Shown one piece after another: positions 55,398-57,635 of a stretch of DNA of 64,000 bases. Under the pieces are notes generated by a model. The model had not been told where the DNA came from and did no database searches. It saw only the letters and a list, made by a program, of their open reading frames with translations. Position 1 is the first letter of the stretch. Each line of letters opens with the position of its first letter. Origin of the DNA: Candidatus Enterovibrio escicola (GTDB taxonomy: Bacteria; Pseudomonadota; Gammaproteobacteria; Enterobacterales; Vibrionaceae); the NCBI RefSeq assembly GCF_002464935.1, contig NZ_NBYY01000011.1, forward strand, positions 124,001 through 188,000, in the 5' to 3' direction. A program made the position numbers and the translations under genes.

Positions 55398-55875
55398 CAG
55401 GACACTATCCAGATTTTCCGTATATGATTTATGTAATATTGAAGCCTATGACCTTACCTTAGTCATGAGCTTCATCTCGTAGCACACTTCTCGTACACGT
55501 GATCTGATATCAACAAAATAGATTGGTTATTCACGGTCGTATTTCGATGGGTTATCTAGTGTTGCTATTGGATTCACAAAAAAACAATGATGGTTCTAAC
55601 GACGTTAAAAGGCGTCAATAAAAAGATCAAAATCTAATTTAACTGGCTAAAACATTACCGATTTAACTTATTATCCCTAAGGGAGTTAAACTGGTGACTG
55701 GTAGATTTAAGTTTCGTCTGACTTTATCGACTGGGGATATGTTCCATGTGGAACCTCAGTTTATCTAGGTTGTTTTTAAATAAGAAGACTAATAAAACAA
55801 CGAAATACATTGATACAAATCACCAGAAGCTGTAGGAAATTAACTCATTGTGATAAAAAGTTAGTATCTCTAACC

Positions 55876-56218
55876 GACGTAGTTCCCCAAATATCTAAAC
55901 TAATCATAATTTCTACGATCAGATCATCATGGAGTTAAAAAGGAGATGATGATGGAAAAGGGAAAGATCAGCAACTGGAAACAATATAATCAAGCATTAT
56001 TACACCGAGGTTCAGTCACTTTTTAGATAGACGCTGCCTAAAGGTATACAGCAAAGGCGAATGAAAGACCCGTAAACACGATAAAGTGAAGCACCGGCAA
56101 ATGTGAAAGCAATGAACAAGGTTCTAAGACTAGGTATGCCTGTTCGATAGCAGACAAATTAAAACTGTAACAAATTTTGGGATCAGTGCGTTATAGGCCT
56201 GATTTAATCAACAACACC
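55876..56218 (+). mobile_element. IS5-family element i, internal-deletion derivative (343 bp)
   Basis: Left terminus GACGTAGTTCCCCAAATATC and right terminus AATCAACAACACC are both kept. It has the leader ATGGAGTTAAAAAGGAG, the start MMEKGKISNWKQYNQALL, a jump through LKVYSKGE, then the ANVKAMNKVLRLGMPVR tail. Two internal deletions removed about 700 bp. It lies inside recF with loss of recF sequence and no clear 9-bp duplication. Confidence 0.82.
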
Positions 56219-56278
56219 TAGTCACGCGGTTGGGGGAGAAGCACGGATTATACCGAGTTACTAGAGAAGAATTATTTA

Positions 56279-57250
56279 ACCTCAGATCTGCATAAGCGTT
56301 TGCTTATCAAACTGAGTCATCTTGATACTCGGCTTTTTTGGTTGAAATAAATACGCGATGAGTCCCGCCAGAAAGTTGACTATAAAGCTGAGACAACTAC
56401 AGTGCCTAGAATGCTTGATTTAGGATATGTTTTTTAGTTGGTTAAGAACAGTTTTGTTAATAAATCGTTTCCGGACCATCAGACGGTCCCAAAGTTTCAT
56501 CACTTTAGGTTTCATATTTTTTATACCCGTTATCAGTGTCACTCCCTTGTCTGCAAGTTCTCGATCTAATGGACTAGAGATATAACCTTTATCTCCGTAT
56601 AAACACCAAAAAGCTCATCAGTCATTTCCGATATAGGCTTTCTATCATCCACATTATCCGTCATTACTTTAACTGAGATAATGCCACCTTGGTCGTTGAT
56701 AATAAGGTGTAATTTGAAGCCGTAGAATCACCCCGTAATTCCTTTTCTTCGCTTTGAGGTACCTTTAAAAACCTAATGTCTGAAAATGCGGAGGTTGTGA
56801 TAAACTTGTATCTTGGACGAATCAACGAAGGCAATCCCTATCAGCCTTACCTGATGGTGAATGAGGTAAGAGTAAAGCGAAACTAGAACACCTTGCATAA
56901 ATCTGAGCATCCTCGTATAACTAACTCATTCAGGAAATTCATTGGTGAGGTAACGACAAACAAAGTGGATGTAATAAGTTTTGAAGTCTCGATATCCCGA
57001 TTGATGGAAAGCTATCACTATCGTCATCACTTCGCTAACTGAGAAGCGAGAAATCTTGTTTCTTTATTTAATATCGGAAGAAATTAGGTATTTTTTCCAT
57101 GCAGGAAGGAAAGTCTGGCAGAAGTCATCAACATCGACGAAAATAGCGTCTAAGTTATTCATACTTGAGTCCTTCTGCAGTCAATAGTTTATTTTAAACG
57201 ATCAGATCACGACTTTAGCCGTTAGTTTATTTCTTATGCGAAGCTCAGGT
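56279..57250 (-). mobile_element. IS982-family element J inside recF
   Basis: 972 bp with ends ACCTCAGATCTGCATAAG and CTTATGCGAAGCTCAGGT. Direct repeats TATTTA at 56273-56278 and 57251-57256; removing the element and one repeat restores recF in frame. The transposase is on the minus strand (MNNLDAIFVDVDDF start near 57165; FDQLRNIS region near 56440), with shifts and stops. Inactive. Confidence 0.9.
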
Positions 57251-57635
57251 TATTTACGGGATCAACAGCTTGTTTATACTGTCAAAGGGCTAGACAAAGT
57301 AGATTTATTTTTTCGTATTACTAATACAGCAGTAAAAGATGTACTCTATCGTGGACATCTAAAACAGATGATCTGTGCGTTACGTTTAGCACAAGGTTAA
57401 CGAATATACTACGTATAGTAGGTAAGAAATGTATTTACTTGATTGATTTTTTTGTCTGAACGGGAGAGTCCATGCCGGCTGTTTTTAGTGTCGCAGTTAA
57501 AAGCTACAGGTATACAGATATTAGTTAGTGCTATTAGGACGGATTAAATCTCTGAAATGTGCGATCAAAATAGTAAGATGTTTCATGTTAGACACGGTAA
57601 AATAACTGCTTAATAAATTAAGCGAGAGCAACTCA

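Follow-up and report, generated by a model that had tools for sequence, protein, structure and literature searches.

Candidatus Enterovibrio escacola MJ02 lives as a symbiont in the light organ of the deep-sea anglerfish M. johnsonii (PMC6020299). For this genome, most genes of repair and recombination were reported as lost, in the form of a count (12 to 3 and 2) (PMC6020299). That report covers the same genome and the same process as described here (pseudogenes beside IS5 and IS982 remnants), and it gives its figures by category, with 3 and 2 genes remaining. The main text of PMC6020299 names neither recF nor recA. The main text of PMC6773444 does not mention recF, and that of PMC2447184 names neither recBCD nor recA. 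Among main texts, we found no paper that names recF, or a state with RecBCD and without RecA, in these two bacteria (E. escacola and E. luxaltus).

Blochmannia and Buchnera have small insect-symbiont genomes, and Buchnera keeps recBCD. RecA is absent in Buchnera and in Blochmannia floridanus (PMC1193525, PMC4285135), as it apparently is in E. escacola. Among genomes that code for AddAB or RecBCD, Blochmannia floridanus, being devoid of RecA, was described as an exception (PMC1193525). Genomes without RecA and resolvases were described as stable and as having few repeats (PMC1193525). In contrast, E. escacola is full of insertion sequence copies.

In Sodalis endosymbionts of lice, RecFOR was reported to be lost much more often than RecBCD (PMC11137140). 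The present case, too, combines an apparent loss of RecFOR with a retained RecBCD. However, Sodalis are insect endosymbionts, whereas E. escacola is a fish symbiont that is not restricted to host cells (PMC6020299). According to published work, the anglerfish symbiont is taken up from the environment and not inherited (PMC6020299, PMC6773444).

Materials and Methods

The window is the whole 64-kb stretch of E. escacola DNA that was analyzed. The genome of strain MJ02 (G000) is a draft of 2,645,619 bases in 39 contigs, with a reported coverage of 58x (PMC6020299). Genome G004 is taken to be E. luxaltus CC26. Fifteen intact RecF proteins were used as queries against the whole window (tblastn), and the coordinates of the pieces are given for reference L021. 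The recF region was aligned as unspliced DNA with four intact recF genes, and its pieces were compared separately. The RecF family model was run on 31 genomes, namely that of E. escacola, 17 others from its genus, 1 from its family and 12 from its order, and every first-look candidate was scored in E. escacola and E. luxaltus. For the insertion sequences, 40 of 522 (IS982) and 40 of 434 (IS5) candidates were scored, so that the match counts given below are lower bounds.

The recF Remnant

In E. escacola, recF is a decayed pseudogene located between dnaN and gyrB, consisting of collinear pieces with two insertion sequences inside (Table 1). The RecF pieces are on one strand and in the correct order but spread over several frames, the lowest E-value being 5e-33 (tblastn). 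The C-terminal piece matches ten Enterovibrio/Grimontia references (L021-L030) with E-values from 1e-29 to 5e-33, and the other five RecF references from 5e-29 to 5e-22. The piece covering residues 223-241 is weak by itself (E 0.002-0.010 with the ten Enterovibrio/Grimontia references) and is assigned because of its position. The RecF model TIGR00611 (cut-off 172) gives 22.1 bits for the remnant in the genome search, and 24.5 bits (1.4e-5) for an open 54-aa part (57236-57397), both under the cut-off. The remnant belongs to RecF by descent, based on homology and the dnaN-gyrB position. A plasmid collection searched with the first recF piece returned no match. A scan of 55390-57650 found 5 promoter-like sites (shuffle mean 7.4) and 2 terminator-like sites (shuffle mean 1.2).

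Table 1. Features of the dnaN-gyrB region of E. escacola (positions in the window)
Feature	Coordinates	Strand	Evidence
dnaN, intact, 366 aa	54297..55397	+	open frame; TIGR00663 372.8 bits, cut-off 137.65
recF start codon site, now AGG	55399..55401	+	alignment to four intact recF genes
recF N-terminal remnant, about codons 2-18	55402..55454	+	tblastn residues 3-25 (55405-55473); alignment
recF remnant, about codons 45-187, frameshifts and stops	55455..55875	+	tblastn; alignment
Piece in that remnant, residues 51-149	55472..55762	+	tblastn
Piece in that remnant, residues 137-192	55723..55890	+	tblastn
IS5-family copy with an internal deletion and two recognisable ends	about 55876..56218, 343 bp	+	ends versus other copies
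recF remnant, residues 223-241	56222..56278	+	tblastn
Target duplication TATTTA, left copy	56273..56278	+	sequence; flanks of other copies
IS982-family element, 972 bp, terminal repeats, broken transposase frame	56279..57250	-	alignment to copies
Target duplication TATTTA, right copy	57251..57256	+	
recF C-terminal remnant, residues 240-360, frameshifts and stops	57251..57613	+	tblastn 240-359 (57251-57610)
gyrB, intact, 805 aa	57636..60053	+	open frame; TIGR01059 1010.1 bits, cut-off 882.4

The start codon has changed from ATG to AGG, and a 76-nt deletion at about 55454/55455 has taken the Walker A P-loop (RecF residues 30-37) (alignment). About 34 codons (approximately 188-221) are gone at the IS5 site. 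These three lesions had escaped a sequence-only reading of this DNA. Short stretches of matching sequence (CTTA in the case of L021) surround the ends of the 76-nt deletion, as would be expected for a RecA-independent deletion. Outside the insertions, the alignment has seven indels of one or two bases, and there is one draft assembly per symbiont, so that single-base lesions are known from the assembly alone. Eight stops, also outside the insertions, align to RecF codons 62, 102, 109, 117, 155, 289, 338 and 360. This count excludes stops aligned at 195 and 222, which fall within the IS5 stretch or at its border. With the AGG, the frameshifts, the stops and the two insertions, there is no open RecF frame with a start codon. 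A 6-nt difference at codon 80 was rejected as a lesion, as it occurs among intact recF genes too.

It is practically negligible as a possibility that an intact recF only looks broken due to assembly or sequencing errors. The MJ02 assembly is indeed a draft (39 contigs), but it has 58x coverage (PMC6020299), and the lesions include deletions. Moreover, 17-23% of the recF codon second positions differ from L021, while the flanking dnaN and gyrB are clean, and recO, recR and recA fail independently (see below).

Several claims of the sequence-only reading hold. RecF residues were found by tblastn in order on both sides of IS5 and IS982, and in-frame stops do occur outside the insertions. recF is dead while its neighbors dnaN and gyrB are intact, both being open and over their TIGRFAM cut-offs.

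The Two Insertion Sequences

The IS982 copy has terminal inverted repeats (ACCTCAGATC...CTCAGGT ends) and the TATTTA target duplication. The duplicated hexamer represents the codons for residues 240-241 (YL), so that EKNYL runs on into RDQQL without a shift of frame once IS982 and one TATTTA are removed, just as the earlier reading had it. There are at least 43 IS982 matches in the E. escacola genome (self included), the best others among the matches listed having 86% identity. In the window copy, open frames of at least 40 aa reach at most 56 aa (minus strand). NF033520 hits a related copy (L123, 170 aa) at 3.6e-37, where the score of 128.3 bits falls slightly short of the cut-off (130). The window has at least two more IS982 copies, at 62441-63419 (+) and 592-1572 (-), which have 83% identity to the recF copy.

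The IS5 copy has no clear target duplication at its site, and its ends align to other copies. At least 58 IS5 matches were found in the E. escacola genome, each of which covers part of the query, except that at its own place. For a related copy, L153, one frame out of three matches NF033579 (1e-8) with 35 bits, far below the cut-off of 140, and this copy matches Pfam DDE_Tnp_1_5 with 34.2 bits, over the cut-off of 28.1. At least one further piece of the same IS5 element is found at window positions 19010-19175 (83% identity).

The two elements resemble the IS982 and IS5 families in their terminal repeats and in the transposase models that match related copies, in part below the cut-off. They differ in that both copies in recF are dead remnants, the IS5 one being internally deleted.

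Order of Decay and Insertion

On the E. escacola branch, recF has an excess substitution at codon positions 1+2, beyond the dnaN expectation, of 0.181 per site (0.115-0.250, 40 bootstraps), computed from the safely aligned codons 1-186 and 242-360. For the C-terminal piece alone, the excess is 0.147 (0.077-0.219). The terminal branch of the IS982 copy is 0.088 (0.067-0.101), and its distance to the consensus of 29 copies (of at least 43 matches) is 0.101; the partial copy L148 was left out of the IS982 alignment. The terminal branches of the IS5 copy are 0.065 (0.027-0.122) for the left end and 0.051 (0.016-0.087) for the other end, based on 19 and 13 copies. An insertion sequence should not have been in recF for longer than its terminal branch indicates, unless the copy donated daughters, in which case it could be older than its terminal branch.

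The recF excess is larger than the IS982 and IS5 branches, so that constraint on recF seems to have ended before both insertions. The decay of recF is likely older than either insertion, by a thin margin. Because the IS5 left-end interval overlaps the low end of the recF interval, this order is likely rather than shown. The timing presupposes that recF and the insertion sequences changed at the same neutral rate. The GC content of recF is now 0.347 in E. escacola versus 0.483 in E. baiacu, and AT pressure may have sped up the decay of recF, thus inflating its excess.

The sequence-only reading had assumed that the insertions killed recF and that decay continued after inactivation. A first hit by IS5 or IS982 into a working recF, with the remaining damage being later decay, is rather doubtful. 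It would fit the state of the IS982 copy, which is inserted in frame, retains terminal repeats and is flanked by a perfect 6-bp duplication, and transposase fragments are reported to adjoin or interrupt each of the 55 non-transposase genes that are pseudogenized in MJ02 (PMC6020299). The intervals also leave room for it, as that of the IS5 left end (0.027-0.122) overlaps that of recF (0.115-0.250), and that of the C-terminal recF piece alone (0.077-0.219) overlaps the IS982 interval also. However, the point estimates (recF 0.181 versus IS982 0.088 and IS5 0.065/0.051) do not support it, the distance of the IS982 copy to the consensus (0.101) is also below the recF excess, and recF of E. luxaltus is dead without any insertion sequence in it. 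We thus prefer the reading that the decay of recF began before the insertions.

The RecA-Dependent System

The RecF cut-off is passed by 29 of the 31 genomes, the failing two being E. escacola and E. luxaltus. There is no second recF in the E. escacola genome, where the remnant itself is the sole match to the RecF model. This rejects a move of recF to another place in the genome and agrees with the earlier claim that no intact recF exists elsewhere.

The names of the genes adjacent to recO, recR and recA are presumed from protein sequences and Vibrio gene order. The recO cut-off is passed by six of eight genomes. E. escacola has a recO remnant between era and pdxJ (31-34% identity, many stops), while the family search of the E. 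luxaltus genome gave no recO match. The recR cut-off is also passed by six of eight genomes, with no family match in E. escacola or E. luxaltus. At the recR locus, beside dnaX and ybaB, only about residues 1-30 are recognised in both, and weakly so (tblastn, E 2e-4 and 7e-4 in small targets). For ruvB, the cut-off is passed by three of five genomes. E. luxaltus has ruvB in two pieces, one with three stops, and E. escacola has weak matches only, the best with 39.3 bits and none reaching the cut-off.

Five of seven genomes pass the recA cut-off, and the family searches of the E. escacola and E. luxaltus genomes gave no recA match. In free-living G016, the interval between rpoS and alaS holds mutS, pncC, recA and recX. 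When the corresponding interval of E. escacola (L175:3560-6595) was compared with recA, recX, pncC and the MutS-bearing frame of G016, the best E-value was 0.58 (tblastn). This interval is filled with other DNA, and stretches of it read like insertion-sequence remnants. In E. luxaltus, a 19-kb stretch beside alaS was compared with the G016 neighborhood, and not one of its 22 frames gave a match at 1e-3. One weak recA match in the stretch beside alaS (tblastn, E 0.032, 28% over 54 residues) is taken as chance.

Neither recA nor recR was found, nor a working recO, and it therefore seems that the RecA-dependent system has been lost as a whole, not just one loader. The sequence-only reading had taken the lesson to be one of RecF-dependent gap repair in particular, which is too narrow. 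The check it had proposed, a search for recO and recR, gave a recO remnant in E. escacola and no recR family match.

Two further genomes deserve mention. G006 (87% complete) has a recF with one in-frame TAG and a recO split over two frames, which may be due to sequencing error or early decay. G018, a 2.6 Mb genome of the family, has the reverse pattern: RecA, RecF, RecO and RecR are over the cut-off, RecB is partial and below the cut-off, and no RecD is over the cut-off.

Comparison with E. luxaltus

In E. luxaltus, recF is a collinear remnant in the same dnaN-gyrB slot, with its own set of indels and with no insertion sequence in the remnant. Its excess is 0.233 (0.181 in E. escacola). In the alignment, no recF indel of one symbiont recurs in the other with both its position and its size unchanged. 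In both, an insertion is placed at recF nt 418, with different sizes (1 and 2 bases), and an older shared point lesion may be behind these. As the recF lesions differ between the two, the loss was probably repeated in the E. escacola and E. luxaltus lineages.

A single loss of recF in the common ancestor of both anglerfish symbionts, followed by decay, is unlikely in our view. Such an event would account for the fact that working recF, recR, recO and recA were not found in either symbiont, for decay of similar size (excess 0.181 and 0.233) and for the insertions at nt 418, though their sizes differ. However, it is at odds with the two lesion sets, which share no indel that agrees in both position and size, and with the reading that the transposon expansions occurred at different times in the two symbionts (PMC6020299). 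A repeated loss is thus the preferred reading.

Retention of RecBCD

The genes recC, recB and recD are intact in E. escacola (L187:8270-18316) and in E. luxaltus (L188:9950-17114 and L195:1420-3498). In the latter, recD lies apart from recC-recB; a loss of RecD in E. luxaltus, suggested by its not being beside recB, was rejected as the gene is elsewhere in the genome. The recB cut-off is passed by four of five genomes, among them E. escacola (1159.9 bits) and E. luxaltus (1157 bits), with no stops. Four of five genomes, again including both symbionts, pass the recD cut-off, and recC is complete in both. TIGR00609, TIGR01450 and TIGR01447 are over the cut-off in both symbionts, corresponding to three full-length RecBCD subunits. 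Of the narrower models, NF008127 (RecD) is also over the cut-off in both, whereas NF008128 (RecB) and NF008289 (RecC) have full-length matches that are under the cut-off in both. AGTGKT in RecB and GPGTGKT in RecD, which we take to be the P-loops, are unchanged, and GFIDLVF and DWKSN, presumably the RecB nuclease motif, are found in RecB of all four genomes compared.

For recB, recC and recD, dN of each symbiont versus G016 is 0.24-0.30, and dN/dS is unusable because synonymous sites are saturated. A branch test was performed for recB and recD (codon positions 1+2, four genomes, imposed topology, 40 bootstraps). Relative to free-living G016, the recB branch is 1.20 (1.00-1.47) for E. escacola and 1.10 (0.91-1.29) for E. 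luxaltus, and the recD branch is 1.20 (0.94-1.46) and 1.03 (0.80-1.34), respectively. The corresponding values for dnaN, the one gene used for comparison and one with a short G016 branch, are 3.89 (2.2-10.9) and 5.52 (2.9-13.7). That recB and recD are not evolving fast where dnaN is represents the strongest sign that RecBCD is still in use. From this constraint, we infer that RecBCD is probably still in use in both symbionts.

In E. coli, SbcCD and ExoI are the nucleases that start the reaction by which replication is completed. This completion is reported to be RecA-independent and to require RecBCD: recA mutants are able to finish replication, whereas the terminus region is lost from recB mutants (PMC10025158). 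The simplest reading for the symbionts would be a trimming of broken or over-replicated ends by RecBCD that is not followed by recombination. It is a tentative but serious possibility that RecBCD has been kept by selection for RecA-free work, candidates being the trimming of over-replicated DNA where forks meet and the degradation of linear DNA, while RecA, RecFOR and RuvB were probably lost separately.

Conclusions

Taken together, it is very likely that recF of E. escacola is a pseudogene within a RecA-dependent system that seems to be lost, with constraint most likely going first and the loss probably repeated, while RecBCD was kept. In the sequence of events suggested by the amount of decay, constraint on recF in the replication operon would have ended first. 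Small deletions, frameshifts and the two insertions did accumulate in recF, probably afterwards. recF, recO and recR have decayed in place, and the expected locus of recA, which was not found, is now occupied by other DNA, some of it resembling insertion-sequence debris. The same genes are broken or were not found in E. luxaltus, probably by a repeated loss, while RecB, RecC and RecD are intact in both symbionts.

The recF pseudogene is ordinary reductive evolution. It is an entry point to a genome apparently without core homologous recombination that has kept all three RecBCD subunits, and what remains of interest in the case is the persistence of RecBCD without RecA. A lineage with RecBCD and no RecA provides natural evidence on the claim made for E. 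coli that replication is completed with RecBCD and without RecA (PMC10025158). If RecBCD has indeed been kept for RecA-free work, both symbionts would be natural RecA-free genomes in which that role of RecBCD stands alone.
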